NCBI RefSeq assembly: GCF_013449375.1
Contig: NZ_JACDRR010000021.1
Location: 132,853 to 196,852, forward strand
From: Pectobacterium sp. CFBP8739
GTDB lineage: Bacteria > Pseudomonadota > Gammaproteobacteria > Enterobacterales > Enterobacteriaceae
Direction of reading: 5' to 3'
Length of the DNA: 64,000 nt
In this document: positions 1 to 24,503 of the stretch, piece after piece
How the letters are laid out: each line of letters starts with the position of its first letter
How positions within the stretch are numbered: position 1 is the first letter of the stretch
The notes under the pieces: generated by a model
The model's database searches: none
What the model was told of the DNA's origin: nothing
The model's input: only the letters and a program-made list of their open reading frames with translations
Program-made: the position numbers and the translations under genes

Positions 1-1545
1 CTTGTTGAATACCTGAAAGGTACTTTGCCAGTTCAGCGTGACGATTTGTCGCTCCAACTGCTGCCGCTCATGTGCCAGTGCGTCAGATGACAGCGTAAAT
101 AGCGTCTGTCCCGCCTGTACAGGCTGGCCAACCTGCACCTCAATGCGCTGAATCATCGCGGGTACGGGCATATACAAGCTACTTTGCTGTTCTGCCCGCA
201 GCAGCGCGGGGGCATACACGCTGCGCTGCCAAGGAATCATCAGCAAGAGCAGAAGTACGGCGCTCACCGTTAGCGTAGTCGTCATATTACGGTTCATACG
301 ATAATCCTTACGGCGTTTACTCCATTCACGGACTTCATTCACCACCGGCATCACGACGAAGTAGCCGATTTCAATGGCGAAAAGCAGCATCCCCAATAAC
401 TTGAACGCCATGTGGTAAACCAAAATCGCGATACCGGTAAACAAGAAGAAGCGGTATATCCACACCGCAAAGGCATAGCCCACCAGTGTGCGTTGCAACC
501 AGCGCGGGAAGTGCTCTGGCGGGGCATCCCCTAAGCCGAACAGCCATTCCCGCATCTGCCAGCGGCCGATAGCGAAGCCCCGATTTTGCAGATTCGGCAT
601 CTGTAATCCATCGGACAGCAGGAAATAACCGTCAAAGCGCATCAGCGGACTGAGGTTAATCGCCAGCGTCATAATCCAGGTGGTCGTCGCCAGCATAAAC
701 GCGGCGCTGCGCAGCATGCCGTCCGGCAAGAAACTCCATGCCAGCGTCGCCCACGCTGCCAGCACCAGCTCGGTCATCATGCCCGCTGCGCCAATCGCCA
801 TCCGCTGCCGACGGCGCGTGAGCTTCCATGAACCGGACGTGTCGGTGTATAGCACTGGCATCATTACCAGAAACGCGATGCCCATCGTGGCTACCCTTGC
901 ACCAAAACGTTTACAGGTATAGGCGTGGCCGAATTCATGCAGAATCTTGGTCACGCACAGCGTCAGCCCCGCCAGCGCTGCGCCTTCCAGCGTGAAGAAA
1001 TGCAGAAAGGTATGCTTAAACGTTTCCCACTGGCGTCCGGCCAGGAATAGCCCCAGCACAGCCACCAGCAGCGTCAGTTTGAGGAACGTGCGGCTGAAAA
1101 ACGGTTCGACCCACGGCAGCGTTGCGCCCAGAAAGCGATCGGGGTGCCACAAGGGGATGCGAAAAAACAGATAGTTCTTCAACAGCTTGCGCCAGATCGA
1201 AACGCGCGACTGTTCTATCTGACGAGAAAACTGTGCCAGCGCCTCATCGCCGGAAACGCGCGTCAGGCTATTGGCCAGCAAGAAGCGGTTGAAATACTGC
1301 ACATCGCTGTCATCCAGCGTGAGCGCTGAAGTTTGGTTAACCTCGGCCACGATCTGCGCAGCATCCCCGATCGACCAGCGCGAGAGCATCGCCATTTCCG
1401 CCCAGCCGATACGAAAATAGAGACCACGTAGCGGATCTTCCAGCGTCCAACTGGGCGATCCGTCTCGATTAGCCGGCCCGGCGTGCAGGATCAGTTCATC
1501 GCGCAGCGGGCTAAGCCCAGCGGCAGGGGTCGCGCCTCCGGCCAT
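1..1545 (-). CDS. M50-type membrane metalloprotease with HlyD-like C-terminal part (partial, runs off left edge)
   Basis: Reading the minus strand from an ATG at 1545 gives about 515 codons without a stop, continuing past base 1. A cytoplasmic-looking N-terminus of roughly 150 residues leads into membrane segments. The zinc motif HEFGH is at residues 203-207, and the matching third-ligand motif NLSPLMRFDG ends at D305-G306, as in site-2-protease (M50) proteins. Further membrane segments follow around residues 370-440. Near the left edge the protein turns into an HlyD/biotinyl-lipoyl-like periplasmic segment. The start lies 2 bases after the stop of the upstream adaptor gene, so the genes are probably translationally coupled. 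Family knowledge: such proteases occur with HlyD adaptors in export loci that lack an ABC ATPase. Inference: it processes or moves the giant protein encoded upstream. The true C-terminus is outside the window. Confidence 0.85.
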   Translation of the reverse strand, partial: MAGGATPAAGLSPLRDELILHAGPANRDGSPSWTLEDPLRGLYFRIGWAEMAMLSRWSIGDAAQIVAEVNQTSALTLDDSDVQYFNRFLLANSLTRVSGDEALAQFSRQIEQSRVSIWRKLLKNYLFFRIPLWHPDRFLGATLPWVEPFFSRTFLKLTLLVAVLGLFLAGRQWETFKHTFLHFFTLEGAALAGLTLCVTKILHEFGHAYTCKRFGARVATMGIAFLVMMPVLYTDTSGSWKLTRRRQRMAIGAAGMMTELVLAAWATLAWSFLPDGMLRSAAFMLATTTWIMTLAINLSPLMRFDGYFLLSDGLQMPNLQNRGFAIGRWQMREWLFGLGDAPPEHFPRWLQRTLVGYAFAVWIYRFFLFTGIAILVYHMAFKLLGMLLFAIEIGYFVVMPVVNEVREWSKRRKDYRMNRNMTTTLTVSAVLLLLLMIPWQRSVYAPALLRAEQQSSLYMPVPAMIQRIEVQVGQPVQAGQTLFTLSSDALAHERQQLERQIVTLNWQSTFQVFNK

Positions 1546-1547
1546 CG

Positions 1548-2903
1548 TTAGACACCCAGCCAGACGCGCAGGGATGCCAGCGGTTTACGCAGCAGGTAAA
1601 CGAATAGCACCGTGCGTTTCCCGTACAGCTTCGCGGTTCCTTTCAGGCCCACGCGCAGCTGCGGATCGTCCTGTGTAAAGCGCGCCCGCAGCCGATAGGC
1701 CATCACATTGTCCGGCGTCGGCGCAGCGCGATAGCCAATCTGTTCAAGCCGTGCGTCCTGTGCCGAATTCGGTGCCACATTGAGGAACAAGCGCACATCT
1801 GCACCATTTTCCAGCGCAATTGCATCCGCAGCAGGCAATTGGATCTCCAGCTCAACATCGTGTGGATCGGCGATCATCATGATGCGCTCCCCCACCGCCA
1901 CCGAGCGGCCAATCCAGTCGCTGCTGTCGTCAAAAATCGCCACGCCGTCACGCGGGGAAGTAAGCTGCATACGTTCCTGCTGACGTTGCAGAAAATCCAT
2001 CTCGCTCTGTGCCTGCTCGCGGCGGCTTTGCAGCACGGCCAGGCTGGCCTTGCTGTTGGCATCGAACAGCGCCTGCTGCTGTGCCTGACGATACTGGGCA
2101 TCGGCGGTGGCAAACGCCTGCCGCGCAGACTCTAGCCGGTTTTCCAGTTCGCGTACGTCCAGTCGCACCAGCGGCTGATTGGCGCTGATGGCCTGATTAG
2201 GGCGAACCAGTATGTCATCCACCACGCCCGCCACTGGGGCGCGCACCATCACCGGGCGGTGTGCGACAATCTCCGCCGGTGCCAGCACCGACTGGCGCAC
2301 CGGAAATAATAAGATCAGCACCAGCACCACGATCGCCGCTAGGATCACACGGCGTTTCTTCGGGCTAGTGTTGGTCTGCCGACGACGTTGTTTCCGCAAA
2401 CTCGACCAGGCGTGCGCGTAGGCATCCGCCAGCTTTTCCAGCAGAACGATCTCAGCAGGCATCCATGCGCTGTCCCGCGCTAACACCAGCACCAGCGGCA
2501 TATCGCCCTGCGCTAAGCGTAGCGGCAGCCAGAGTAAAAATTCTGGCAGATGTTCCTGCCACAAAATCTGATCATCGGCAGGCAGCTCGCGGCATTGCAG
2601 CGCCTGTGTTTGTCGCCCTTCTTCCTGCCACTGGCGGCACAAGCGACTAAATTCGGTACAAAATGGCGCGTTGTGATCGAGCGAGGCCAACCCAGAAGCC
2701 GCCTGCAAGCGCTGTTTATCACAGTCCCACAGCAGGGCTTGTCGGTACTTCACCAGATTGTGCGTTTCATTGACGATCAAAAACGCCAGTTCATCCAGCG
2801 TTTCACGCGCTCTGGCACGGCTTTGCAGTTGCAACAACTCGGCCAACAACACCAGCCGAGTATCCTGTTCGGATTGTTCTGCTGTCGTGTTCCGATCGGT
2901 CAT
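1548..2903 (-). CDS. HlyD-family adaptor with GAF-like N-terminal domain
   Basis: 451 residues. Residues 1-170 form a soluble segment resembling a GAF-type domain (helix-rich start, then the LPLRLAQGDMPLVLVLARD strand pattern). A single membrane helix follows at about 188-205 (VILAAIVVLVLILLFPV). Next comes a periplasmic adaptor part with a lipoyl half (APVAGVVDDILVRPNQAI), a coiled coil rich in Gln/Ala/Glu around residues 250-315, and the second lipoyl half with a beta-barrel. The start codon overlaps the previous gene by 4 bases (ATGA). A cytoplasmic GAF-like sensor on a membrane-fusion protein is unusual; classical HlyD proteins have only a short cytoplasmic tail. Role inferred: inner-membrane adaptor bridging the M50 protein to the TolC-like channel. 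Confidence 0.8.
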   Translation of the reverse strand: MTDRNTTAEQSEQDTRLVLLAELLQLQSRARARETLDELAFLIVNETHNLVKYRQALLWDCDKQRLQAASGLASLDHNAPFCTEFSRLCRQWQEEGRQTQALQCRELPADDQILWQEHLPEFLLWLPLRLAQGDMPLVLVLARDSAWMPAEIVLLEKLADAYAHAWSSLRKQRRRQTNTSPKKRRVILAAIVVLVLILLFPVRQSVLAPAEIVAHRPVMVRAPVAGVVDDILVRPNQAISANQPLVRLDVRELENRLESARQAFATADAQYRQAQQQALFDANSKASLAVLQSRREQAQSEMDFLQRQQERMQLTSPRDGVAIFDDSSDWIGRSVAVGERIMMIADPHDVELEIQLPAADAIALENGADVRLFLNVAPNSAQDARLEQIGYRAAPTPDNVMAYRLRARFTQDDPQLRVGLKGTAKLYGKRTVLFVYLLRKPLASLRVWLGV

Positions 2904-3658
2904 GGTGACACGCTATCCGCAGTCTTAGGTGGGGTGATTTGCGCCACACCGCTCATGCCTGGCAGTAATCCGGCGGTGGACTGAGTAATGCGACCAAAAA
3001 CTTTTACCGATTGGCTAACCGGATCGATCGCTGACGACAGTCGGCTGATTTCCGCCGGATAGCTCAGACCCGTTTCATCCAGCGTGACCTGAAACGCGCT
3101 GCCCTGCTTGAGCCAGACCAGCCAGCGTGACGGCACGATCATTTCCAGCTCGAACGCGCTGTCATCATAAATCGCCAACAACTCTTTACCTTCCGACACG
3201 GATTCCCAGCGTTTCACCTTGGTTTCCGTAACGCGGCCGGAGAACGGGGCTTTAATCGCACAGCGTTGCAGCATGGCGCGATTGACGCCGCTTTCCGCCT
3301 GCGCCATCGACACCGACGATCGCGCCTGATCGACATCAGACAGGCTGATCGAATTGAGCTTGTCTAACCGATCGGCAATCGCCAGCTTCTTACGTGCGGC
3401 ATTTTCCGCAGCGTTTGAGTAGTTCAGCTTTTCGCGCAGCACAGTGCAATCAAACGTCACCAGCGTATCGCCCTGTTTGAAGTGTTCGCCCTCTTTCACC
3501 GCAATATCCGTCACTTTTCCGGCAATTTCGCTGGATAACACGGTATAGCGCTGCGCGCTAAGCTGCACGCGAATGTCTCCCGTCGTCTCAGCCTGCCCCC
3601 ATAGGGGCAGACTTAACGCACTCGCCAGTAACAGCGGACGCATCATGCCGAAAGTCAT
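2900..3658 (-). CDS. Periplasmic adaptor (HlyD/RND-type membrane fusion protein)
   Basis: 252 residues with a cleavable signal peptide (MRPLLLASALSLPLWGQA, cleavage after about residue 23). It carries a lipoyl half motif (EIAGKVTDIAVKEGEHFKQG), a short alpha-hairpin, the second lipoyl half (IKAPFSGRVTETKVKRWE) and a beta-barrel. There is no membrane helix apart from the signal, so it is periplasmic like the RND-type adaptors. Its ATG shares one base with the TAA of the TolC-like gene (TAATG), and its TGA overlaps the next adaptor. It is shorter than usual RND adaptors (about 350-400 residues), mainly in the hairpin. Two different adaptors in one cassette suggest a composite periplasmic conduit. 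Confidence 0.8.
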   Translation of the reverse strand: MTFGMMRPLLLASALSLPLWGQAETTGDIRVQLSAQRYTVLSSEIAGKVTDIAVKEGEHFKQGDTLVTFDCTVLREKLNYSNAAENAARKKLAIADRLDKLNSISLSDVDQARSSVSMAQAESGVNRAMLQRCAIKAPFSGRVTETKVKRWESVSEGKELLAIYDDSAFELEMIVPSRWLVWLKQGSAFQVTLDETGLSYPAEISRLSSAIDPVSQSVKVFGRITQSTAGLLPGMSGVAQITPPKTADSVSP

Positions 3659-5478
3659 TAACGCGAACCTCCGGCCTGTAGGGATTGCAGGTTATCCCAC
3701 ATATCCGTATTCACGACGCGATAGGGTTTCCCCACACCAGCCGATGATGTCACAGCAGACGATGCCGTCGTCGACGAGGCAATTGGCTTCACCGCAAGCG
3801 CAGAGGATGGGGTTGACGCTGTTTTAGTCGATGCCGTCGTGGTGGCCGGCGTAGCCAGTGTTGACAGGGACAGACGCGGCACCGCAACACCGCCTTTCTC
3901 CAGATTACCCGTGGTGCGGGCAATCGAATTGCTCAGCGCCGCCAGACTGACATCGTTCACGTTATCCGGCAGCACATCCAGCCCAGCCGCCTGATACACC
4001 GCGCCCAGCGCGTTCTGCACGTCGGCAAAGCTGCGGTCACGCGCGCGGGTGGTCAGAATGGTTTCCGTGCTGACGCGCACCTGCTCCATTTGCGTTTCAG
4101 CACGGTGCTGTACGCTGAGCGTGGTCTGATTGAGGATACCGCGCTGAATCCGCGCCAGTTCCTGATAGCGGCCGAACATCCGCGTACTCTGCTGATATTC
4201 CTGCCAGGCGACGTTCACCTGCGTCAGCACCGCCATACGCAGCGCCTGACGGCGGACTTCCGCCAGATCTTCGTTCGCCTGTCCGGCACGTTTCACCGAT
4301 GACCATGACAACACATTCAGCAAGTTACCGCTAACCTGAACGCCAGCATTTGCCCACTGGTGATTGACCAGATAGCTGTTGCTGTCGCCGTTGATACCGG
4401 CAAACAGCGACACACCCGGCAGCAGGCGCAGCAGCGATTTGCGGGTTTCCAGTACGCTATTGCGTGCCAGATAGCTCTCTTCGCGCACTTCTGGGCGTTT
4501 AACCATCGAGAAGTTTTCCAGATCGTCGAGCGAGTAGGCCATCTTCGGCGCGACCAAACTGCTTTCGCTCGGCACGACGACATCGTACTTGCTGGACGGC
4601 GGCAGGTTCATCAGCGCCGCCAGACGGGACTTCGCCACCACCAGATCGCTGTCAACGATTTCCAACTGGCGCACCATCTCCAGCATATTTTTCTGGAAAC
4701 GCAGTGCCTCAACCGGTGCCAGCAGGCGCTGTTGTTCGGTCTGGCGCGCATATTCCAGCGCCTGACGCGCCTGCGTCAGCGCCGTGGTCACTTCCGGCTG
4801 CAAACGCTGCGCCGTTGCGGCTTCCCAATAGGCCGTCCGCACCTGACGGGTAATATCCGCGACAACGCGACGACGGCGTTCTTCCGCCGCCAGCGATTTG
4901 TTCGCCTGTACTTTGGCGTTGAAATAGCTGATACCAAAATCCAGCACGTTCCAGCTCATCGTCAGATCGGCGGTGCGCTGGGTCTGATCCTGACTGGTGG
5001 AGGCTTCCAGCGACTGTCGACCGGTGGTCACCGATTGGCTACTTGAGCCAGCGACGTTATCGCGGGTTTGCAGCCCAGCACGCGCGGTCAGTTTCGGTAA
5101 CAGCATATCCAGATTCTGTACGCCCAACAGATCGTCTTCCATCGCCTGTTCCAGCAATGCGACCCGCTGTTGCAGGTTATATTTCAGCGCGCGGGCAATC
5201 GCTTCATCCAGCGTGATCGTGCCGCGTACCGGTTCCTGATTGGCGAACATCTGCGTTCTATCGCTCAGCGCCTGGGCAACCTGCTGTTCAACCGTAATCG
5301 GCTCAGGCTTGACGGCACAGCCCGCCAACCCCAGACAGGCAAGGGTCACGGCGATCCGTAACGCCCGGGAACCTGCGGTACGTGGTGTAGCCTCGTATTG
5401 AACGTGCTGCTGCTGACTATCGTGTTGCTGGCTATCCCAGAAATGCGCTATGTGCTGATTCACCCAGGTTCTCCCCAT
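3658..5478 (-). CDS. TolC-family outer-membrane efflux lipoprotein
   Basis: About 600 residues. A long polar leader of some 45 residues precedes a lipoprotein signal ending in LGLAGC, so the mature protein should be lipidated. The body has the two alpha-helical repeats of the TolC/OEP family (ITLDEAIARALKYNLQQRVALLEQ and later RPEVREESYLARNSVLETRKS). The C-terminal 90 residues are rich in Ala, Ser and Thr and look like a flexible extension. The ATG at 5478 has poor ribosome-binding spacing. A GTG at 5463 lies seven bases after a GGAG and may be the true start. It follows the giant-protein gene by 97 bases in the same orientation and is presumably the outer-membrane exit of that protein. Confidence 0.85.
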   Translation of the reverse strand: MGRTWVNQHIAHFWDSQQHDSQQQHVQYEATPRTAGSRALRIAVTLACLGLAGCAVKPEPITVEQQVAQALSDRTQMFANQEPVRGTITLDEAIARALKYNLQQRVALLEQAMEDDLLGVQNLDMLLPKLTARAGLQTRDNVAGSSSQSVTTGRQSLEASTSQDQTQRTADLTMSWNVLDFGISYFNAKVQANKSLAAEERRRRVVADITRQVRTAYWEAATAQRLQPEVTTALTQARQALEYARQTEQQRLLAPVEALRFQKNMLEMVRQLEIVDSDLVVAKSRLAALMNLPPSSKYDVVVPSESSLVAPKMAYSLDDLENFSMVKRPEVREESYLARNSVLETRKSLLRLLPGVSLFAGINGDSNSYLVNHQWANAGVQVSGNLLNVLSWSSVKRAGQANEDLAEVRRQALRMAVLTQVNVAWQEYQQSTRMFGRYQELARIQRGILNQTTLSVQHRAETQMEQVRVSTETILTTRARDRSFADVQNALGAVYQAAGLDVLPDNVNDVSLAALSNSIARTTGNLEKGGVAVPRLSLSTLATPATTTASTKTASTPSSALAVKPIASSTTASSAVTSSAGVGKPYRVVNTDMWDNLQSLQAGGSR

Positions 5479-5575
5479 CTTCTATTTGTCTGTTCCCTTC
5501 GGCTTGCAGGCGGTGGCCTGCAAGCGCTTAGGTGTGTGGTTAAGGAATAAAATCTCGTCTCGATCTGCGGCGTGC

Positions 5576-8500
5576 TTACGCACGCAGGCTGCTCAGTTCA
5601 CTGAGCGCCGCCAGCAGCGCATCCTGTTCAGGCTGATGCTGACGCAGTTGTTCGGTAAAGGCGGTTTTCCCCGTTGGTGCTAATCGCTCTGCATCGCGGT
5701 TTTCTGCGGGGAGTGCATCAGAGTGGACAGGCAGTTGCATCGCACCACGGTCAGTCGCCATTTCTGCACCAGCGCCCTGTCCGGTTTGCAGCGTAATCGG
5801 TACGATCCGGCTGGTGCCGTCTGCGGCCTGCGCTTTCAGTGCCAGTTGGATCTGATTAACCTGTACCGCACTGGTATCGGTAATGCGCACCACGCCGCTG
5901 CGGGCATCAAACTGCACCCACGCAGGAAGAGGACGCCCGTTGGCCAGTTGCAGCGTCAGCGTGGCGTTGCCTTCACGCACGCTGAACATGCGCTGCGGCA
6001 GGCTAAAGGCGAGCGCGCCGGAGGCATCCGGCTGTAACGCGCCCTGCACGCTGCTGAAAGCCGATTCCAGCGCCGTTGTCTGACCGCGCACGCTCAGGAA
6101 CAGGTTAGAATCCGCCGAGCGCACGGCGGCGCTATCGCGTATCGCCGCCTCAGCACGTGAAGAGAAGTTGACCTGCTCCAGCGTTGGCATCAGTTGTGAC
6201 ATCACAGGATCAAGGACCCAAGGGGCATCCGACGGACGCGTGGTATCGGCCGCGCGTTGGCGTACAGGTTCGGTAACGATGTTGGTTGGTAGCGGTTGCG
6301 CTTCTAGGCGAGATAAATCGGCGACAATCGCCCCCAGCGGCTGTTCGCGTTCCCTTTCTGCCGCCTCTATCGGCAGGCTGACGCCTTGCTGCACCAGAAT
6401 CACCGGTGCCGCTGTCACGGTGTTATCGGGGGTTTCCGGTTGCGGTTCAACATGGGCTTGCGCCACCGTCACCTTGACAGAATGGGTGGACTCCGCCTTA
6501 CCATCGCTCGCCGTCAGTACCACGGTAAACTCACCGGATGCAGTCGGTGTGCCAGAAATCGTGCGGGTCGCGGCATCAAAACTCAGCCCATCCGGTAGGC
6601 CGCTGACACGCCAGGCAAGGCTGTCGCTATCAGCATCGGTAAACAGATTTTCCGGCAGTGTGTAATGATACTCGGTGCCCGCTTGTAGCTGGCCCAAATC
6701 CAGCCCGGCGTTGTCGTTATAAACCGGAGCACTATTGTCTGGCTCCACATCGGGCGCTTGCGCCACCGTCACGTTGACGGAATGGGTCGCTTCCGCTTTG
6801 CCATCACTGGCGGTGATGGTTACGGTGAACTCACCGGACACAGTCGGTGTGCCAGAGATTATGCGAGTCACAGAATCAAAACTTAGCCCATCCGGCAGGT
6901 CGCTGACACGCCAGGCCAGCGTATCGCTATCAGCATCGGTAAACAGATTTTCCGGCAGTGTGTAGTGATACTCGGTGCCCGCTTGTAGCTGGCCCAGATT
7001 CAGCCCGGCGTTGTCGTTATAAACCGGGGCGTTATTGTCAGGAACTTCAGCGCCTTCAAAGGTAATGACCGCTTTTTCTTTGAACGCGGCCTCAACATTC
7101 TGTCGCCAGTCAGCATCTTCAAATACGGTCAACCCGATAGTGCGGCTACCAGAACCCTCAGAGCCACCGTGGCTATAGGCAAGGCCATCGATTAACTGTG
7201 CGGTGCTTGCACCATCACGCGTTACATAGAGGGTCACGGTAGCAACACCATTAGCAACACTGACACGGTATTCTATCTTGCTGTCACCGACAAACATCTG
7301 ATAGTCAACGGTTTTGTCGATAACAATTTCGCCGCCGTCCACATGTAGCACATCACCGGTTGTTGCAGGGGAAATGACAATTTCCATCCTGTGAATCTTT
7401 TGGCCGACTTCAATAGTGTCGATGGCAGTATTCTTAAACAAGCTGACAGGTTCACCGCCTGACGAGTAGGAACCCCCGACTGGCTCGGTACTGACCACCG
7501 CAGGATCGTTAATGCCGACCACATTCACCGCCGCAGTAAATTCTGCCGTATGGCCTTCACCGTCATTGAAGCTGATGCGGAAAGTGGCGGTGTTTCCCGC
7601 TAGAGTGGGATCTTGACTGGTGGACTGGTAAGTTATTGCACGCAATACTTGTTGCGCTTCAGCCTGAGCGACGCCCGTCAAGAAAGTGATGGTGAGCGCA
7701 CCATTAGCAGCCGTTGTGACAGCAGCAATGGCCTTATCCCCTTGCCAGATTTGGCCGTCGTTGAAGCTCAAACCACTGGCAGATGAAACCCCAAACTGGT
7801 CACCGGTCTGTGTACCGCCAGTGCGCTCAATAACAATGCTGGCACCCTGATAGCTACTTTGGTCGTTTACCGGTGCAGACACCGTACCGCCAGGAAGCAA
7901 CGCTACCGGGTTGTCATTTTCGGTAAAGGTGACATTGGCTGGTTTCAGATCAAGAACAACGACACCCTCTGGGGAACCGTAATCAATCGCACCAGTGATA
8001 TACAGCTGTTTGCCGTCAGCGCTAAACGCAACCTGACGAACCTCATTCAATAGCGTGCCATTAAAATTGGCAAGGTCGCCAAAACCGTCCACGGCCTGAA
8101 GTTGCGTCAGGCTACCATCTGCAGCTCGGGCATATAGAATAATGCCATAAGTAGCAAAATTATCGCTTTGTCCTAAATCGCCCGTGATCACCACCGATTT
8201 GCCATCGGGTGATATCAGCACCTGTTTGACGGTATTCACCCCGTCAGGAAGAGAAAGGGAAGAGGTTGCGGACAATGCGCCATCATCCGCGACCGTAAGA
8301 AGATGAATTGACTTATGATTATCAACTACATACAACGTTTTTCCATCAGGAGAAACGCTCAGTGCAGAAGCATAAAAACCGTCGTCACTGGGACTTGCTC
8401 CAGAAACCGCTTGTCTGAAAGTCAGCGTGCCATCATCACCAATACTAAACCGGCTGACCAAAGTGTCACTGCCAGACGTCGCGACAAACAATGATTTACC

Positions 8501-11500
8501 ATCAGGTGATAACGCCAATGCATTAGCAGCATCAAGTTGTAAACCGCTGCTGTAATCATCCGTAAAGGTCTTGCTCAGTGTCAGCGTATTACCATCACGC
8601 GTGAAGACCAACAGGCTTTCTCCGGTGGTGATATACACTTGATCATCGTTGATCAACACGTCACGCACCATACCGATATCACGACCAAACGTACCGATCA
8701 CGTTCAAATCGCTGGCATTAATGATCGCAATACTCTCCGCGCCGATAACATAGAGACTGCTCCCGTCAATGGACGCACGCACCTGCGTCGCGTCAGTCAA
8801 TCCGGTGATTTCTACGCTATCAGACAGATATAATTTGCCGTCTTCGCCACGCTGAAGCACAGAGAGAGTATTGTAAGTCACATCTTCGCTGGTTTCGGTT
8901 TCATCATGATAGATAGAGTCAGTGTGGGTGCGCACCACATAAATATTCTCCCCCGACACGGTGATACCTTGAATGCCGGTAAAACGTGAGTTCCCGTCAT
9001 CGTCCAGCGCCTCGAATATTTCTGCATAGTCAAGCGAACCGGTCTCTGCCCCCAAATGCACGATCAAACGAGAATCCAGCACAACCACGGCGGTACTAAT
9101 GTCAAGTTGTGCGGCGTTATCGTTCGCATCGACAAGGCGTGTTAGGGTGACGACAACCTCACCTTCAGCGACGGCGTCCTCCAATGCCTGGTATTGTATA
9201 TCATCAATCAATGCAGCCACTGCACTTGGTGCATTGTCTCCGTCGTGGAGCACGAGCGTAATAGTCGTCGTGTTATTTTCGATAGATACCTGATACTGGT
9301 GCCCATTCGTTGTCACACCCGCAGCATCCGTTGCAGTTAACGGGATTGTACTCCCATCAATCACCAGTGCCTGGTCTGCTCCGGTACGGTTCACCGTAAG
9401 CGTCAATTCTGAGAGCGCCGCGCCATCTTTACCCAGAGCAATGTGCACGTCGTCAAATAAATCCACCGCAGCAGGCAAACCATCCAAGCCAACGTCCACC
9501 ACTGGCTGCTGGCTTTCCGCACTCATATTGGGTTCAACAGAAGGCGCAACCAGCATCAGCGCCAGTGGAATGTCAGCGGATTTTCCCCCGCTGTCGCGCA
9601 CACTGACGGTCAGATCAACGCGTGCTGGCAATTCAGTCCCGCTGTTACGGTACGTCACCTGCTGTAAAACCTGGTTAACCACAGTTTTAGATATTGGTGA
9701 TGTAATGCTGACCGTGATCGTGCCTTCCGCTACCGTTACATCGGCGATTTTCACATTATTGAGCAACAGCGTGCTGCCTTTCAGGCTCAGCCCCTGCCCA
9801 TTTGCCAGCCCAAACACATCGTTAGCGGAAGCATTACCTGAACGAGCGATCGTGAAGGTCATTCCCTGATAGCTATCCAGTTCATCCATATCAACATCGC
9901 TAAACTGTATACCCTGAGCAAAAGGCGTATTGGAGATAGATGCACTATAAGAAGCGTGCGCCGCCGCGCTAGACATCATCACACCGGTATTGAAAAAGCG
10001 TGCGCCGGTATACAGCGATTTGCCGTCTTCCGATAACGTCAGCGTCGTGACAGGACGCCCTACCGCCAGCGTCCCAGTTTGCGTGAGCTTACCATCCGAA
10101 CCAATCGCGTAAACCGTCACGGCACCGTTATTACTGCCGACATACAGTGTCTTACCGTCTGCAGAGGCAGTCACGCCCCAGGGATTGCTAAACGTCAGGG
10201 CCTCAACCCGGCTGACCATGTTTTCGGCAACATCGTAATGCAGCACCGTCAGGCGGTTGCCCACATTGCTGGTCACAATGTAGAGATAGCCCTCATCGGT
10301 GACGGTAAATGAGGAATTGGCGTGGTTAAGCTCATTGCTGGTCCCCAGTGTGCCTGCGGCTTTCGGCACACCCGCGCTGTCGGTATAAGTCAGCGTAACG
10401 TCATCACTGCCACGCGCTAACTGGCCTGCGTAGTTCAGCCCACCGTTTGCATCCGTGGTATAAATCGTGATTCGACCCGCATTACCCAGCACATACACCG
10501 TACCACTGGCATTCACCGCCATCCCAATCGGCGTGGTGCCATCAACCTGAGTAAACGTCGCGGGATTGCTCAATGTGCCACTATCACCAATGGTGTAGTG
10601 GTACAACGTGCCCGCCGTGAGCGCATACAAACTTTTTCCATCATCCGAACGGGCCAGTTTCAGCACATTGCCTGCCAGCCCGTCAACGCGCGCAGTCAGG
10701 CTTAACATGCCCGTGTCAGCATTTTTGCTGAATATCAGAACTTCCGAATTAGCGCTCAGATAAACGGTGGAACCATCCGCCGAGAAAACGGCTGCGCGTC
10801 CGATAAGTCCGCTGACCTCCGTCCCATTATCCGCATTGCCATCATCCATTCCCGATACAAGACGCTGTAATAGCGTTAGTTTTCCTGTTTCAGGATCGCG
10901 CTGATAGAGGCTGACCCGCGCATCGCCGCCATAGTTAGTGGTGGTGGAACCAATAACCAGCAACGTACGGCCATCATCGGACAACACCATGCTGCTGACG
11001 TAGTTGTCATAGCCAGTGAGCAGCCCATCGGAGTAATACAAATTAGGATCGACCGCGATATCGGTCTGGATGGTTGGCGCATTATTGATGGCTAACGTTA
11101 AGGTGGCCGTAATATCCGGGAGGCCGGTATCCACACTCTCACCGCTGGTTCCGCCATTATCACGCAGGCTGGCCAGCGTCACGGTACGGGTGCCCGCGGT
11201 TGCCTGCGGCGTATCGTTAACATAGGCAATGCCGTTTACCAGTGCCTGCACCGCCCCCGCGTTCATGCCCGCGCTACTGTGCACCGTCAGCGTGCCGGTA
11301 CCGTCATTCAGCGTGTAGGTATAGGTGTAACCGCTACTCGTCTCGCCGCTTCCTGCCTGAGTCAAATCCACACGCGTGCCATCGACAATCAGGAATTCGT
11401 TCGCGGCCTGCGCCAACCCGCCGATATTCAGCGTCACATCAAGAATGGTTTGTCCTGCTTCACCGGTCGCAAGCTGTGACTGTGTGAACACGTTAACCGT

Positions 11501-13597
11501 CGTGGCAGAGGTGTCATAGACCGGAAGCGGTGCGATCGTCGCCGTCAGCAGAGGCGCGGTATTGGCGGTGATCAACACATCCAGCCCCACGCGCTGGCTG
11601 TCTGCTTTTCCATCATTGGCATGTAGCGTCAGCCTCACCACGGTGCCGTCAGCAACCGTTCCGGTATTCTGATAGGTGATTTGACGCAGGGCAGCATTGG
11701 CATCGCTCCGGCTTACGCCGGGCAGGAAAGCAATCGTCAACACGCCACCAGTCTGGCTGAAGGTAGCAATGGCGCGATCGCCCTGAAGAATCTGTCCATT
11801 ATCCAGCCGCAGGTTATTCCCTTCACGGAAACTGAATACGTCATCGCTTGATGGGCCGCCATCGCGGGACAGCACCAGTTGCGCCGTGCCGTAATCACCG
11901 TTGCCATCGGCCAGTCTGTCAAAATTGGCGTCAGAGAAGGTCAGTCCGGATGCGATCGTTGTTTCCGTTCCACGAATTTGCGTCTGAATTGACGTATAAC
12001 GGTTTAGGCCGTTACCGGAAGCCACGATGGAATTGCCGTCTGCGGACAGAGCAATATCACTGCCGTTCGTGCTGCCGCTCACGCTTCCCGACAACGTCAG
12101 GTTGCCATTGGCCGCGATGGCATAGGTGTTGATCGTGCCATCGGTTGCTGCTGCATAAAGCAGCGCTTTATCGGCATCCAGAGCCAGACTGCCTATGCTG
12201 CCGCTGGATATCGTGTTAATGAGCGACGGCTTGCCATTACCGTCAAGCTTATAGATGGATATCGTGTTTGCCGTTGGATCGCCCAGATACACGAATTGTC
12301 CATCTTTCGACGCGGCAACGGCATACTCAATGAGCGTAGACCCCGTGTGGCTGAGCTGAACGCTGTCGAGGAGCGTTAATACGCCGGTATCGCTGCGCTG
12401 ATAGACTTTCAGCTCGTGTGAATCAAACAATGTTGCGCCTGCGTGGGCGATGTAAACATAGTCGCCAGATGTGGCAATAATACCGTTACGGTGTGATGAC
12501 AAGGTTTGTATTCGTGTCAGCGCCCCTTCATCGCTGCGGCTATAGACGTATACGATCCGGCTAAAGTCGTTGCTGGCATCAACGTAGAGCTGAGTACCGT
12601 CGTCAGCCATCGCCAGGCCGCCAACTGAACCAGAACCAACCGAGAGCGTTGCCGTGTGCGTCAATACCCCATCGCTACCGACGCTGAATTGCATCAGGTT
12701 GCCATTGCCAGAAATGGTATAGACCGACTTGCCATCACCGCTGACCACCAGATGATTGACGGTTCCCAAATTCTCAACCACTACGCTCTGCTGTGGTGTA
12801 AGACGCCCCAAGGTATCGACCGAGAAGACGGAAAGGGTGTTAGCCGTCCCTGCCGCATAAACATAGTTACCATCTGCGGAGTAAGCGATCCCTGTTGAAC
12901 CCGCCAGAGACCCAGCAGTAAAGGACTCAGCCTCCTGTAACGTTCCCCCGAACAGTTCCGGTGCCACGTTGACAGAACTGTCGATAGTGACGGTCGCATG
13001 AATATTCAGCTCGACCGTATCGGTATCATCGCCGCCTTCATCACTCAGGCTTTTCAGCGTCACCACGACATCACCGCCGGCCACGGTGTTATCCAGCGGC
13101 TGGTAGGCGATACTGTCGATCAACGCCCTGGTATCCGCGAGATTATTGGTAAAACCGTCGATATTAACGGTCACCGTCGTGGTGTCGCCGCTCACGGCCA
13201 CAAGGTAAGAGAAGCCATCACTGTCAGCTCGTGTCGTTCCACTTCCCGATTCCAGCGCGATGCTTTTACCGTCAATGACTAATGCCTGATTCGCGCCCGT
13301 ACGGTTAACGGTAATCACCAGATCTTTCAGTGTCTGTCCGTCTTTATCTGCCGATACGCGAACGTCGCTGAACAGATCGACCGGTTGGAAACTGTCGCTG
13401 CTGTCGGTGATGGTGACCGTCGCCTTAACCGGCGTGGCATCAACACCCGGTGCGGTGTCCGTTGCTGCGACGGCTACCGCCACATCTGCCAACGTCGCGA
13501 CAGCAGCAGCATCAAACATCATGCGTGGTTCCAATACCCACGCCTGACGCGGCGTGCGCGTTAAGCCTGAACCAGATTTTGAGCGGGAAAAAGTCAT
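5576..13597 (-). CDS. Giant LEPR-motif repeat surface protein (putative exported adhesin)
   Basis: 2673 residues. The N-terminus is basic and lacks a Sec signal, but carries VLEPRMMFDAA at residues 21-31. This motif defines the LEPR-XLL class, found at the start of very long repetitive Gram-negative proteins. The rest alternates modules: a beta-sandwich of about 150 residues (starting near 53, 695, 1366 and 2043), YVTN/lactonase-like beta-propellers with LSPDGKSL-type blade motifs (about 210-555, 850-1220 and 1520-1890), and a cadherin-like segment after each propeller. Two nearly identical 100-residue Ig-like domains (PVYNDNAG...SGTPT) occupy about 2185-2385, followed by a 290-residue tail. 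I see no cysteine and no RTX nonapeptides. The ATG is 57 bases after tadG, with AGGA ahead of it and no visible terminator between. Function as adhesin or matrix protein is inferred. Confidence 0.9.
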   Translation of the reverse strand: MTFSRSKSGSGLTRTPRQAWVLEPRMMFDAAAVATLADVAVAVAATDTAPGVDATPVKATVTITDSSDSFQPVDLFSDVRVSADKDGQTLKDLVITVNRTGANQALVIDGKSIALESGSGTTRADSDGFSYLVAVSGDTTTVTVNIDGFTNNLADTRALIDSIAYQPLDNTVAGGDVVVTLKSLSDEGGDDTDTVELNIHATVTIDSSVNVAPELFGGTLQEAESFTAGSLAGSTGIAYSADGNYVYAAGTANTLSVFSVDTLGRLTPQQSVVVENLGTVNHLVVSGDGKSVYTISGNGNLMQFSVGSDGVLTHTATLSVGSGSVGGLAMADDGTQLYVDASNDFSRIVYVYSRSDEGALTRIQTLSSHRNGIIATSGDYVYIAHAGATLFDSHELKVYQRSDTGVLTLLDSVQLSHTGSTLIEYAVAASKDGQFVYLGDPTANTISIYKLDGNGKPSLINTISSGSIGSLALDADKALLYAAATDGTINTYAIAANGNLTLSGSVSGSTNGSDIALSADGNSIVASGNGLNRYTSIQTQIRGTETTIASGLTFSDANFDRLADGNGDYGTAQLVLSRDGGPSSDDVFSFREGNNLRLDNGQILQGDRAIATFSQTGGVLTIAFLPGVSRSDANAALRQITYQNTGTVADGTVVRLTLHANDGKADSQRVGLDVLITANTAPLLTATIAPLPVYDTSATTVNVFTQSQLATGEAGQTILDVTLNIGGLAQAANEFLIVDGTRVDLTQAGSGETSSGYTYTYTLNDGTGTLTVHSSAGMNAGAVQALVNGIAYVNDTPQATAGTRTVTLASLRDNGGTSGESVDTGLPDITATLTLAINNAPTIQTDIAVDPNLYYSDGLLTGYDNYVSSMVLSDDGRTLLVIGSTTTNYGGDARVSLYQRDPETGKLTLLQRLVSGMDDGNADNGTEVSGLIGRAAVFSADGSTVYLSANSEVLIFSKNADTGMLSLTARVDGLAGNVLKLARSDDGKSLYALTAGTLYHYTIGDSGTLSNPATFTQVDGTTPIGMAVNASGTVYVLGNAGRITIYTTDANGGLNYAGQLARGSDDVTLTYTDSAGVPKAAGTLGTSNELNHANSSFTVTDEGYLYIVTSNVGNRLTVLHYDVAENMVSRVEALTFSNPWGVTASADGKTLYVGSNNGAVTVYAIGSDGKLTQTGTLAVGRPVTTLTLSEDGKSLYTGARFFNTGVMMSSAAAHASYSASISNTPFAQGIQFSDVDMDELDSYQGMTFTIARSGNASANDVFGLANGQGLSLKGSTLLLNNVKIADVTVAEGTITVSITSPISKTVVNQVLQQVTYRNSGTELPARVDLTVSVRDSGGKSADIPLALMLVAPSVEPNMSAESQQPVVDVGLDGLPAAVDLFDDVHIALGKDGAALSELTLTVNRTGADQALVIDGSTIPLTATDAAGVTTNGHQYQVSIENNTTTITLVLHDGDNAPSAVAALIDDIQYQALEDAVAEGEVVVTLTRLVDANDNAAQLDISTAVVVLDSRLIVHLGAETGSLDYAEIFEALDDDGNSRFTGIQGITVSGENIYVVRTHTDSIYHDETETSEDVTYNTLSVLQRGEDGKLYLSDSVEITGLTDATQVRASIDGSSLYVIGAESIAIINASDLNVIGTFGRDIGMVRDVLINDDQVYITTGESLLVFTRDGNTLTLSKTFTDDYSSGLQLDAANALALSPDGKSLFVATSGSDTLVSRFSIGDDGTLTFRQAVSGASPSDDGFYASALSVSPDGKTLYVVDNHKSIHLLTVADDGALSATSSLSLPDGVNTVKQVLISPDGKSVVITGDLGQSDNFATYGIILYARAADGSLTQLQAVDGFGDLANFNGTLLNEVRQVAFSADGKQLYITGAIDYGSPEGVVVLDLKPANVTFTENDNPVALLPGGTVSAPVNDQSSYQGASIVIERTGGTQTGDQFGVSSASGLSFNDGQIWQGDKAIAAVTTAANGALTITFLTGVAQAEAQQVLRAITYQSTSQDPTLAGNTATFRISFNDGEGHTAEFTAAVNVVGINDPAVVSTEPVGGSYSSGGEPVSLFKNTAIDTIEVGQKIHRMEIVISPATTGDVLHVDGGEIVIDKTVDYQMFVGDSKIEYRVSVANGVATVTLYVTRDGASTAQLIDGLAYSHGGSEGSGSRTIGLTVFEDADWRQNVEAAFKEKAVITFEGAEVPDNNAPVYNDNAGLNLGQLQAGTEYHYTLPENLFTDADSDTLAWRVSDLPDGLSFDSVTRIISGTPTVSGEFTVTITASDGKAEATHSVNVTVAQAPDVEPDNSAPVYNDNAGLDLGQLQAGTEYHYTLPENLFTDADSDSLAWRVSGLPDGLSFDAATRTISGTPTASGEFTVVLTASDGKAESTHSVKVTVAQAHVEPQPETPDNTVTAAPVILVQQGVSLPIEAAEREREQPLGAIVADLSRLEAQPLPTNIVTEPVRQRAADTTRPSDAPWVLDPVMSQLMPTLEQVNFSSRAEAAIRDSAAVRSADSNLFLSVRGQTTALESAFSSVQGALQPDASGALAFSLPQRMFSVREGNATLTLQLANGRPLPAWVQFDARSGVVRITDTSAVQVNQIQLALKAQAADGTSRIVPITLQTGQGAGAEMATDRGAMQLPVHSDALPAENRDAERLAPTGKTAFTEQLRQHQPEQDALLAALSELSSLRA
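6445..7044 (-). repeat. Tandem 300-bp repeat encoding two Ig-like domains
   Basis: Two consecutive units of exactly 300 bases (100 residues) inside the giant-protein gene. The shared stretches around 6661-6720 and 6961-7020 are nearly base-for-base identical. Differences are mostly single substitutions (for example SDLPDG versus SGLPDG, and NLGQLQ versus DLGQLQ). The encoded units begin NAPVYNDNAG or SAPVYNDNAG and end HSVNVTVAQA or HSVKVTVAQA. The near identity suggests recent duplication, and this is a likely site of copy-number change between strains. Confidence 0.9.
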
Positions 13598-13654: not shown

Positions 13655-15286
13655 TCATTCAACCAGCCGAACATAGCCGCCCTCGGTTTCTATCTGGCTA
13701 GCAATACGATCCAACCGTCTAATCAATTGATCCTCAACGCCCTCTGCGCCGAACCCTGCACCGTCGATAAAGCTCATCCGCTTTTCACCCTCGGTACAAA
13801 TCAGCAGGCCTGGCGTCGCTTCGGCGTCGAACAGGTTGCGGCCAAAATCCTCTGGGTCGCCGGGACGAATGCCGACAAAATAGAATTTGATGTTGCGCGC
13901 ACGAAAGCTGGAACACAGATCGCGGAAGCGCTGCGCAGCAAAGGTACGGGCGGGATCCGAACCGGTTTGACCACTGAATGCATTGCGGTTGAAGTTGTAG
14001 CTGTCGGTGTCAAACCAGTCACCGACGGTGTTGGCCATCATCACGATCACTTTTTGACCGTCACCGTTGCCGTCCAGATTGAAATCCAGCGGCAGCGTGG
14101 CATCACCCCAGCCGTCTGAACCGCGCATGTTGGGCGACAGCGCCGCCCCCGCCCATGACATCCCGATGGCGTAGTTCACGTTGAAGCGGGCAGAGAACTG
14201 ATCGATACGCTGATTCAGTTTGCTTTCTTCATTGGTCAGCGGCATCAGCGCCGCGTTCGGGCACCCTCTATCAGCGACGATAAAGCGGGTATCTACTGCA
14301 TTGGAGTTGTTATCCCACGGGTAGAGATCGGGATTGGGACCACGCCAGGAGATCGGCGGCGCACCAGGGCTGCCGTTTACCGGCAAATCGTGACGGTAGT
14401 ACACCCGGAATTGGCCAACGGGCGGCTCATCCCAGAAGAAATTTTCTTCCCGCCCCAACCCACGGTACATGCACAGTAAATTCGCTCGGCGATCGGGGAA
14501 ACGACGATCAGCGAGGCTGCTGACAACGCCGCTGGCAAACAGCGAACGCAGCTCTGGCGGGTTCAGCGCTCCCGGAGCAGACCAGCGCCGAATGCGGTTG
14601 GCGTCTTCCGCATCGTACACACTCACCGACTGGCTATACGGCACCAGCGATAGCCACAGGTTGTCACGCTTGCCGTCTGCGCTACTCAGCATGCGCTCGA
14701 CGAAACTGCGGCTAACGCTTTTCAGCGAACGGATATCCCCTTCGCTCATATCCCCCGTCACTGGCATGACAAAGGCAATTTCGGTCGGGCGGTTGACGAT
14801 CTCTGACGTCGAGTATACTTCCTGCTTCCTTGCTCCGAGGTTCAGCAGGCTAGGCTTGGTTTCGAAGGCGACGGTGACGGTATAGGTTTTACGCGTCTCG
14901 CTGTTGCGCCCTTCCGTGACGGCCACATCGCCTACCTCCAGTTTTTCACTCAGGGCCTTATTCATCCCCAGATTATTTTTGACGTAGTCATACGCCAACT
15001 TATTGGTCTCTTCCTGGCTGTACTCTTCACCATTAATGGTCGCCTGATGCCCGACGGCCAGCGCAGCGGCATCCGTCGCACGCTTGATCTGCGTGGCATC
15101 ACCGGTTGCCGTGGAGGTATCCACGATAAAAGCCGCCGTCACCAATAACGCCATCGCACCCAGCACATAAAACCCTGTACCCGCCCCTTTTTCCTGCTGA
15201 ATAAAGGCAGACAGGCGTTCACGCCAGAACAGAGTGATTCCGGTAGCGTCTTTTTTTACTCTTCTGTTCTGTAAGGTTTTTTTCAT
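13655..15286 (-). CDS. tadG: TadG-like Flp pilus assembly protein
   Basis: 543 residues. An N-terminal cytoplasmic stretch of about 37 residues is followed by a TadE/TadG-type membrane segment (GFYVLGAMALLVTAAFIVDTS) and the typical DATQIKRATDAAALAVGH sequence. The large periplasmic remainder has a von Willebrand-A-like appearance (AFVMPVTGDMSEGD near the start, KVIVMMANTVGDWF later), though the usual DxSxS metal motif is degenerate. It is the last tad gene in the operon and lies 57 bases before the giant surface protein gene. A gap of 196 bases separates it from tadF. The exact role of TadG in the pilus machine is not well defined. Confidence 0.88.
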   Translation of the reverse strand: MKKTLQNRRVKKDATGITLFWRERLSAFIQQEKGAGTGFYVLGAMALLVTAAFIVDTSTATGDATQIKRATDAAALAVGHQATINGEEYSQEETNKLAYDYVKNNLGMNKALSEKLEVGDVAVTEGRNSETRKTYTVTVAFETKPSLLNLGARKQEVYSTSEIVNRPTEIAFVMPVTGDMSEGDIRSLKSVSRSFVERMLSSADGKRDNLWLSLVPYSQSVSVYDAEDANRIRRWSAPGALNPPELRSLFASGVVSSLADRRFPDRRANLLCMYRGLGREENFFWDEPPVGQFRVYYRHDLPVNGSPGAPPISWRGPNPDLYPWDNNSNAVDTRFIVADRGCPNAALMPLTNEESKLNQRIDQFSARFNVNYAIGMSWAGAALSPNMRGSDGWGDATLPLDFNLDGNGDGQKVIVMMANTVGDWFDTDSYNFNRNAFSGQTGSDPARTFAAQRFRDLCSSFRARNIKFYFVGIRPGDPEDFGRNLFDAEATPGLLICTEGEKRMSFIDGAGFGAEGVEDQLIRRLDRIASQIETEGGYVRLVE

Positions 15287-15444
15287 CCTTTCCTATCCTG
15301 TATTCCTGGATTCAGCGCATACTCAACCCGCCCATAAAACGGGAAAATAAAACGACATGGCTCACACGTTATTTGTCTTAATCGTTTTGTTATTCCGGTA
15401 ACGAGAAACTCGCTGCCGTTTGCGGTCTATTTGCCGCTTCTATG

Positions 15445-15482
15445 TCTTCTATAAAACCCGTAGTCTTCTATAAAACCCGTAG
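15445..15482. repeat. Two tandem 19-bp repeats after tadF
   Basis: The unit TCTTCTATAAAACCCGTAG occurs twice head to tail, ending directly beside the tadF stop codon at 15483. The 196-base tadF-tadG gap (15287-15482) otherwise shows no gene and no convincing terminator. Confidence 0.85.
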
Positions 15483-16115
15483 CTATTGATCTTCTTCTTC
15501 CAGACCGGCCTCTTTTTTGAGTACCTCATCCAGCTCAACCACATTGATAGCCACCCGGTTAACTGACGATGCATGCAGCAGACCACCCAACGACAGGCCG
15601 CCCAGCAGGCTCACATCTTTCCCCTGACGGCAGATTTCGACCACCATCATGGAGGTGTTCTTGCTGCCCTCTTCGCGGTCTCTTTCCGGCAGTTCAGGGA
15701 GGTACTCTTCGCCCGGCAGGGTTTCACTTTCTGCACATAGCGCCTCTGCCGTACCTCTGCTCAACTGCCAGTACAGCTCGCCGGTCTGGCGCACGTTGCT
15801 GATTAACAGTTGGTAATTGCCTAACCCTTCCGCTGGCAACACCGTATTGAGCAGACCTTGCAGACCTTTCTCATCCAGCTTTTGCTGCATCGCCAGTATC
15901 GACGCAATGGCACCCGCGCGTTGTTCCATACGCGTACGCTCCAACCCGACGGTATAGATATCCGCACACAGCGACCCCATCGCCAACACAATCGGAAACG
16001 CTAACGCCGTTTCTACCGCGGTAGAAGCACGACAAGAAAACCAGAAGCGGCGGAGCCCATTCAGTAAACGGCTGGCTTTCCGTGAACGACTGGTTTTCAG
16101 TAAAAAATCAGTCAT
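15483..16115 (-). CDS. tadF: TadF-like minor pseudopilin
   Basis: About 210 residues from the ATG at 16115, which overlaps the end of tadE by 8 bases; an in-frame start upstream would add eight residues. The N-terminal region has the pseudopilin-like pattern CRASTAVETALAFPIVLAMGSL, with a glutamate at the head of the hydrophobic stretch as in TadE/TadF prepilins cut by TadV. The remainder is a soluble periplasmic domain ending in an acidic tail (EEEDQ). The family works as a minor pilin in Flp pilus assembly. Its position between tadE and tadG supports the name. Confidence 0.82.
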   Translation of the reverse strand: MTDFLLKTSRSRKASRLLNGLRRFWFSCRASTAVETALAFPIVLAMGSLCADIYTVGLERTRMEQRAGAIASILAMQQKLDEKGLQGLLNTVLPAEGLGNYQLLISNVRQTGELYWQLSRGTAEALCAESETLPGEEYLPELPERDREEGSKNTSMMVVEICRQGKDVSLLGGLSLGGLLHASSVNRVAINVVELDEVLKKEAGLEEEDQ

Positions 16116-17534: not shown

Positions 17535-17624
17535 CGGTTGTCACCCTAGTGAATTCCGGTTCAGACCGGGAATCACGTTTTAAAATCAACATGTCGGAAA
17601 CAAAACTACATGTCTGAAACAAGA

Positions 17625-18584: not shown

Positions 18585-18598
18585 GAATAGCTCTCCCT

Positions 18599-19579: not shown

Positions 19580-19597
19580 CGGCGTCTCCTTCGTCCA

Positions 19598-21001: not shown

Positions 21002-21061
21002 AATCCTGAACCCCAAAAAACAGTCTGTAACCCGTTGAAAGACGGCTAACGCTTAATATCA

Positions 21062-22261: not shown

Positions 22262-22275
22262 GGAATGTCACGCCC

Positions 22276-22962: not shown

Positions 22963-22983
22963 GTGTTATTTCCCCTCGCGAAC

Positions 22984-24423: not shown

Positions 24424-24503
24424 TTACTTAATTTCCGTAATGGGCTTCATTTTTCCATGAACAACTCGCGGCTCCCCGCAGGCTGTCAGATGGCGTACTC
24501 GTC

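Follow-up and report, generated by a model that had tools for sequence, protein, structure and literature searches.

How a giant protein might reach the bacterial surface when the genes accompanying it encode a TolC-type channel and HlyD-type adaptors, and no ABC exporter, is the question raised by a 64,000-nucleotide stretch of DNA from the plant-rot bacterium Pectobacterium (hereafter the window). Type I secretion is composed of HlyB, HlyD and TolC, with giant adhesins of the LapA and BapA type among its cargos. The surfacing of giant proteins without an ABC exporter constitutes a gap, for which the cassette described here offers a tag, a candidate receptor-protease and, in a sister branch, a candidate motor. 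A previous, sequence-only reading of the window held that five of its genes act as one system and represent a distinct route of export or assembly; co-occurrence across genomes and a second cassette in the same genome support this view at the level of linkage and anatomy. We consider it fairly probable that the five genes constitute a dedicated, ABC-independent export-and-display system for one giant protein, probably powered by a SecA-type ATPase.

Organization of the cassette and its relatives

The cassette genes (Table 1) are transcribed in the order giant, TolC, short HlyD, longer HlyD and M50-HlyD, with the first two 97 bases apart, overlaps of 1 base and then 4 bases at the next two junctions, and 2 bases between the last pair. 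Their initial description as five packed, co-directional genes proved accurate in every coordinate, gap and overlap, and matches to the OEP, HlyD_3 and M50 families confirm the proposed TolC/HlyD/HlyD/M50 composition, including the HlyD extension of the M50 protein. Two features of type I secretion, an adaptor of the HlyD family and an outer membrane factor of the TolC family, are present. The M50-HlyD gene runs 585 bases further left outside the window, and in full (positions 132268-134397 of contig C14, on which the window itself lies; L005:3269-5398) encodes a protein of 709 aa matching M50 (8.5e-8) and HlyD_3 (3.7e-24) in a family search.

Table 1. Features of the cassette and its right flank, in window coordinates
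Feature	Position	Strand	Basis or remark
M50-HlyD: M50 site-2-type metalloprotease, PqqD-like N-terminus, C-terminal HlyD	1..1545, open at window edge	-	
Longer HlyD adaptor, 451 aa: GAF-like N-terminal domain, one TM, HlyD domain	1548..2903	-	HlyD_3 1.2e-15
Short HlyD-type periplasmic adaptor, 252 aa, Sec-type signal	2900..3658	-	HlyD_3 3.9e-20
TolC-type outer membrane factor, 606 aa, lipobox-like LAGC read by eye	3658..5478	-	OEP/TolC 2.9e-20
LEPR giant (cargo), 2673 aa	5576..13597	-	ORF reading and family search
C-terminal motif of cargo, G-K-x-A-F-T-x-Q-L then leucine-rich tail	5579..5671	-	Sequence pattern
LEPR motif of cargo, residues 22-35, LEPRMMFDAAAVAT (LEPR = residues 22-25)	13493..13534	-	Motif and profile match
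Tad/Flp pilus genes (right flank operon)	13655..25457	-	Begin 57 bases upstream of cargo

The absence of an ABC ATPase from the cassette had also been claimed, with the left flank named as the place where a contradicting gene might lie. In the 20 kb fetched there, of which the genes nearest the cassette were searched against protein families and further ORFs were listed by position, a PL4 rhamnogalacturonate-lyase-like gene is followed, moving away from the cassette, by actP, a DUF485 gene and acs. No ABC exporter gene was found in the cassette or among the family-searched flanking genes to its left and right; on the right, the Tad operon encodes a T2SSE ATPase whose ABC_tran match stays below the cut-off. 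A TadG-like gene lies immediately upstream of the cargo here and in L012, L017, L021 and L029, the cargos so preceded belonging to Pectobacterium, two Marinomonas species and Pseudomonas cichorii. As this arrangement is seen in several genera, the cassette may be linked with the Tad pilus in some of its hosts.

A second cassette exists in the same genome, on contig C56, and consists of genes for a short HlyD, a longer HlyD, an M50-HlyD protein 41% identical to that of the window, a tail-collar-domain protein and a DUF4347 giant. The giant, which runs off the contig, bears the LEPR-like N-terminus ALEARMLFDGAVAAT, and no TolC gene lies beside this cassette. The tail-collar domain is of the phage type, and its gene (L006:3696-4649) is located between the second M50 gene and the giant.

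Beyond this genome, a scan of genome contigs gave 391 confirmed relatives, the best 80 of which define the related loci considered here. The order TolC-HlyD-HlyD-M50 is intact in 48 of these 80 and HlyD-M50-TolC-HlyD is found in 2, while shorter chains occupy 27 (11 HM, 7 HHM, 6 M and 3 THM); one further locus has extra TolC-like pieces and two lack an M50 call by the rule used. Many of the shorter chains are taken as the product of contig ends and of simple ORF-caller errors in high-GC loci. A motif scan of 78 of the best 80 loci found no ABC exporter inside the cassette, and nine ABC-like ORFs near it, of which three were checked by Pfam. One, in Serratia (L014:13710-18814), lies 2.1 kb from the cassette on the other strand and is a genuine ABC exporter of the C39 type, accompanied by an HlyD of its own; another (L019), 1.4 kb away on the same strand, encodes an ABC_tran domain protein with no ABC_membrane match; the third (L044), 125 bases away, was rejected as an AAA_15/SMC-type ATPase and no exporter. 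The other six, known by motif only, lie 2-7.5 kb from their cassettes.

The giant cargo and its terminal motifs

The window cargo is built from a K/R-rich N-terminus, the LEPR motif, three beta-propeller (Lactonase-like) stretches and two Ig-like (He_PIG) stretches. Its motif, of a class with the consensus LLxLE[PS]RxMFD[GA]AAxAT, scores 15.9 bits against NCBIfam NF012209, or 17 bits with its neighbors, equal to the cut-off of 17 (E 0.073); it is absent from the NF012209 matches at E<=0.02, and as such is a borderline member. Against A3, a 24-row alignment of cassette-linked N-termini from which the window's own row is absent, and which includes the close Pectobacterium relative L012, the same motif reaches an E-value of 1.7e-10. 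The N-terminal LEPR motif ascribed to the cargo is thus real, though borderline for the named family. At the loci of the best 80 of the 391 relatives, LEPR-type motifs give 29 hits, 26 with at least 150 open codons and 22 with at least 800, as compared to 1-8, 0-5 and 0-1, respectively, for five permuted control motifs at the same loci.

LEPR cargos carry K/R-rich N-termini before the motif and E, R and D within it. By a crude measure, the hydrophobicity of the best 12-residue stretch, 24 of 26 cargos fall at 0.88-1.78 and 39 of 41 adaptor signals at 1.61-3.23; one cargo (L060) reaches 2.6. The earlier statement that the cargo lacks a Sec signal is less certain than it was put for that of the window, whose best stretch, located just after LEPR, scores 2.12 and lies within the range of the adaptor signals.

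The companion statement, that a C-terminal RTX signal is missing, agrees with the lack of a HemolysinCabind match in the window cargo upon family search. RTX repeats are nevertheless present here and there in the cargo class, given that one cargo of the sister branch described below (branch B; L128) matches them and that GGxGxD, absent from 34 of 42 large ORFs near cassettes of the window's branch (branch A), occurs one to seven times in the other 8. In PMC10868602, a Vibrio giant is described that combines LEPR-XLL with C-terminal RTX; it may be a type I case, and it counts against a strict one-to-one rule. LEPR-XLL is also named in PMC9611531.

At the opposite end of the cargo, the pattern G[KR]x[AG][FL]SxQL matches 17 of the 41 large cargo-like ORFs at related loci and misses 24; among 765 other ORFs and 1103 internal windows it has no match at all. 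The enrichment is partly circular, as the pattern was drawn from the cargo-like ORFs themselves. Five cargos, four of Nitrospirota and one of Nitrosomonas (L036, L047, L055, L068 and L083), end differently, with a hydrophobic stretch like AGFVAWxLRxGSLLAS and no GLSxQL motif.

Co-occurrence of the LEPR motif and the M50 gene

A survey of genomes for joint occurrence of LEPR-XLL giants and M50-HlyD genes had been proposed, and was carried out in 398 genomes of the window's phylum with an M50 alignment (A2, 59 rows; strong M50, E<1e-190) and with A3 (motif, E<=0.01). Since the motifs that make up A3 were taken from the vicinity of M50 genes, A3 favors that type; the search itself was blind to M50 positions. 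Strong M50 genes were found in 77 genomes and the motif in 72, with both in 71, M50 only in 6, the motif only in 1 and neither in 320 (Fisher p 3e-70, a descriptive value given that the genomes are related). The single motif-only genome (G189) is 57% complete. Among the six M50-only genomes (G052, G057, G088, G129, G203 and G271), the last encodes beside its M50 gene (L137) a giant starting LELRFIFDGAA, a variant missed by A3. Among 118 genomes of the Nitrospirota, to which Nitrospira defluvii belongs, the M50 and motif searches single out an identical set of 15 (Fisher p 3e-19, likewise descriptive). Taken together, these data reveal a strong linkage between LEPR and M50.

At the level of single genes, the motif lies on the same contig and no more than 25 kb away for 59 of the 113 strong M50 genes. 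Among the weaker M50 genes, 0 of 22 have an A3 motif within that distance, as they belong to the sister branch with its other motif type and A3 models the motif of branch A only; for this reason they were rejected as a negative control.

The named family yields a comparable picture. When NF012209 was searched in 349 of the 398 genomes, 62 matched at E<=0.02, 56 of which also possess an M50 gene of branch A or B. Overall, an M50 gene of either branch is present in 89 genomes and a LEPR call in 92, with 86 genomes having both. The six LEPR-call genomes with neither M50 branch are G189, G212 (86% complete) and G003, G076, G279 and G302, in which the LEPR matches lie in frames of only 64-311 aa; the three M50 genomes with no LEPR call are G129 (75% complete), G203 (82%) and G057 (100%). 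The G057 cassette (L135) is a branch-A type HlyD-HlyD-M50 chain; the fetched stretch of 19 kb contains no LEPR giant.

The M50-HlyD protein and the adaptors

Residues HExGH (203-207), N297, P300 and D305 of the M50 domain are invariant in 59 of 59 aligned homologs, making it likely that an active protease has been conserved. In comparisons with PDB profiles, the protein matches adaptors of the MacA/HlyD type and, weakly, the S2P proteases MJ0392 and RseP. Its closest named M50 family is that of the daptide protease, NF041824 (145.5 bits against a cut-off of 300), and it also falls below the cut-off of the YydH/LiaK family (NF058609). The window protein is 97% identical to the P. versatile M50 protein in the best segment.

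PqqD is a peptide-binding fold, and PqqD/RRE domains belong to RiPP systems. The N-terminal ~115 residues of the M50 proteins were compared with PqqD profile to profile, yielding a Prob of 94 between branches A and B, 97 between branch B and PqqD, and 57 between branch A and PqqD directly, with unrelated controls below 1. The Pfam PqqD model scores over cut-off for the branch-B proteins of L121, L150 and L151 and matches 2 of 36 branch-A members at E<=1, and a PDB profile search with the N-terminus gave no match up to E 10. As judged from these profiles, the branch-A N-terminus appears to be kin to PqqD, mostly transitively via branch B, and is a candidate receptor for the LEPR leader. Given the orientation of the HExGH helix in known S2P enzymes, the N-terminal domain would lie on the cytosolic side of the membrane and the HlyD part on the periplasmic side.

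With regard to the adaptors, homologs of the short HlyD carry a signal-like stretch, and Pectobacterium homologs of the longer HlyD (L010-L012) have their TM near residue 186. The GAF match of the longer HlyD is weak in branch A (7 of 28 homologs at E<=1, best 1.5e-4) and clear in branch B (4e-10, one protein scanned). Two nucleoporins matched by the GAF-like domain in the PDB, at 0.055-0.058, are taken as chance.

A sister branch with a SecA paralog

The weaker M50 genes make up branch B, a sister clade to branch A, the M50 branch of the window. The two clades separate with an SH-aLRT of 100 in a quick tree of chosen rows (30 of the 59 A2 rows, 12 A6 rows and both M50 genes of the window genome). 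Branch B comprises 47 M50 genes (E<=1e-120) in 38 of the 398 genomes, and most of its loci that were viewed encode an HlyD of ~600 aa, the M50 protein, a SecA-like ATPase of ~670 aa and a second HlyD, of ~300 aa; some have a ShlB/FhaC-type barrel or TolC. For 43 of the 47 M50 genes, a SecA-like gene follows downstream at a distance of at most 1.5 kb and on the same strand; 37 of these matches score at least 648 bits and 6 are weak, split or cut. The four M50 genes with no such neighbor are those of G186, G010, G085 (contig C38) and G332.

In the SecA-like proteins of L121, L126, L133 and L150, the SecA_DEAD, PP_bind (preprotein cross-linking) and P-loop domains are present by Pfam, the helical wing/scaffold domain not being among the matches listed. 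Two SecA-like proteins score 558.5 and 509.3 against TIGR00963 (cut-off 800), and SecA2 models also fall below cut-off. Branch-A cassettes contain no motor gene of their own, and nine genomes with branch A only, including that of the window, each gave one SecA match. A 907-aa SecA-type gene of housekeeping length located 124 bases downstream of an M50 gene (L034) is a single case and was given no evidential weight.

Motif types likewise differ by branch, being FD[GA]A-like beside branch A and LLSA/LLNA-like beside branch B. The six branch-B N-termini that could be reached read LEQRLLLSGE, LEPRFLLSGE, MEPRLLLSAE, LEPRVLLNSD, LEPRVLLDGT and LEPRLLFSAT, and two annotated branch-B plasmids add MEPRVLLSAD and LEPRVLLNAD; several other giants ran off the fetched stretches. 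NF012209 matches are found in 37 of the 38 branch-B genomes, and within 60 kb on the same contig for 21 of the 47 M50 genes. The motif-bearing frames beside branch-B genes mostly span 4,000-15,000 codons, the shortest having 353 and 2,850.

The Pontibrevibacter cassette runs LEPR-XLL giant (31,812 bases), DUF3467, GAF-HlyD, M50, SecA-like and HlyD, its M50 protein being annotated as PqqD family and its SecA-like protein as a DEAD/DEAH helicase. This M50 protein has no Pfam M50 match at 0.001, and scores 868 bits against the branch-B profile with HELGH and RFDG kept; that of Methylosinus behaves likewise, at 927 bits. A DUF3467 gene (L150:11725-12006 and L151:11553-11873) separates the giant from GAF-HlyD in each of the two annotated plasmid cassettes of branch B that were viewed. 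Across loci L120-L134, L150 and L151, a shortened SecA paralog adjoins the M50 and HlyD genes, and on plasmids the SecA-like gene is annotated as a prepilin peptidase, a DEAD/DEAH helicase, a hypothetical protein or SecA.

A proposed mechanism and its alternatives

From the observed gene order, co-occurrence, catalytic residues and domain kinship, we infer recognition, cleavage, transport, location and energy source as follows. The PqqD/RRE-like domain of the M50 protein, in the cytosol, would bind the LEPR leader, and the M50 domain would cut this leader or gate entry. Together, M50-HlyD, GAF-HlyD and the short HlyD would build a conduit across the periplasm that leads to the TolC-type channel, and by this path the giant would reach the surface without a dedicated ABC exporter. 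Energy would be provided by a SecA-type ATPase, the least certain step: a dedicated paralog in branch B and the housekeeping SecA in branch A. A SecA-type motor is the better guess on account of the SecA paralog in the sister branch, from which we infer the same for branch A.

A bolder reading, put forward tentatively and with more doubt than belief, is that of a new envelope-spanning secretion class in which a site-2 protease bearing a leader-recognition domain of the RiPP type would provide a TolC-HlyD conduit with its gate or channel in the inner membrane, a SecA-type motor would drive export, and the LEPR-tagged cargo would range up to more than 10,000 residues. Its motor, a suggestion held just as tentatively, would be the dedicated shortened SecA in branch B; in branch A, housekeeping SecA or extracellular folding of the cargo would take that part.

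The TolC and HlyD parts are type I parts, a fact in keeping with a type I system in which the cassette supplies TolC, adaptors and leader protease, and a distant LapB/HlyB-like ABC exporter, acting in trans, provides the power. Exporters that could fill this role include an LssB-type type I ABC exporter elsewhere in the window genome (contig C29, 979 bits), with matches over the LssB cut-off in 30 of the 48 cassette genomes searched, themselves drawn from the 71 with both genes, as well as the C39-type exporter near the Serratia cassette; the Vibrio giant described in PMC10868602 points the same way. However, the other 18 of the 48 fall below the cut-off, four of the genomes having low matches (G023, 2e-87; G064, 7e-85; G213, 9e-93; G298, 3e-89), counts that concern the LssB family model only and leave absence of an ABC exporter unproven. 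As no ABC exporter is located inside the cassette in the 78 of the best 80 loci scanned by motif, and as the sister branch has a SecA paralog, power from an ABC exporter in trans appears improbable.

That same paralog is compatible with a second alternative, in which the giant crosses via SecYEG by means of an unusual long leader, the M50 protein removes this leader in the membrane, and the adaptors with TolC then either convey the giant or keep it at the outer membrane. The S2P-type active site, the K/R-rich N-termini preceding the motif, and the window and L060 cargos, each with a stretch as hydrophobic as Sec signals, are in agreement with such a route. Yet the leaders carry E, R and D within the motif, 24 of 26 are of low hydrophobicity relative to adaptor signals by the crude measure given above, and a cytosolic RRE-like domain would presumably be superfluous for Sec targeting; prior passage through SecYEG is thus unlikely, if somewhat less so than an ABC exporter in trans. 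The kinship of the M50 protein to the daptide biosynthesis protease, together with that of its N-terminus to PqqD/RRE domains, raises the prospect of a RiPP-like role, of the kind that daptide M50 proteases have, in the export or maturation of a small peptide, with the giant a mere neighbor. Near one-to-one co-occurrence with giants in two phyla, and a motif type that tracks the M50 branch, make this highly improbable. The dedicated export-and-display system outlined above is accordingly the reading we retain.

Relation to known systems

The cassette resembles type I secretion in its TolC-type channel, HlyD adaptors and giant, repeat-rich cargo of surface type, but differs in having an M50 protease in place of an ABC exporter, a LEPR N-terminus on its cargo and, in the window, a cargo with no RTX match. 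The RiPP M50 proteases (daptide, YydH/LiaK) share with it a homologous M50 core and, as it appears, a PqqD-like N-terminus; the cassette protein, in contrast, has a C-terminal HlyD, partners of thousands of residues rather than peptides, and scores below both cut-offs. Branch B alone can be likened to accessory SecA2 systems, in which a dedicated SecA paralog is found beside large surface-type proteins, although the branch-B gene lies between M50 and HlyD, sometimes near TolC or ShlB/FhaC, and encodes about 670 aa. Finally, NF012209, at whose cut-off the window cargo stands, shares the LEPR-XLL motif and names that motif only.

In the open papers searched, no work linking LEPR to M50, HlyD or SecA, and no export route for LEPR-XLL giants, was found. 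On this literature, the SecA of branch B suggests a so far undescribed way of placing very large proteins on the bacterial surface. At present, cassette genes are annotated as HlyD efflux adaptor, site-2 protease, PqqD, prepilin peptidase, DEAD/DEAH helicase or SecA, and carry no common name.

Plasmid-borne copies

Since plasmids of Azospirillum and of a faecal E. coli carry the cassette whole, the system is testable via simple gene removal. In E. coli, a complete branch-A cassette resides on the IncHI1B plasmid NZ_CP060066.1 (L152, L154), its giant of 3668 aa bearing the N-terminal motif LESRQLFDGAALAE; matches to the M50 protein occur in 18 plasmid records of Escherichia. An annotated cassette is also found on plasmid p2 of Azospirillum brasilense (L155), where the cargo is split into a LEPR/DUF4347 protein of 798 aa followed by an Ig-like protein of 3383 aa, with an annotated 4-base overlap between the two.
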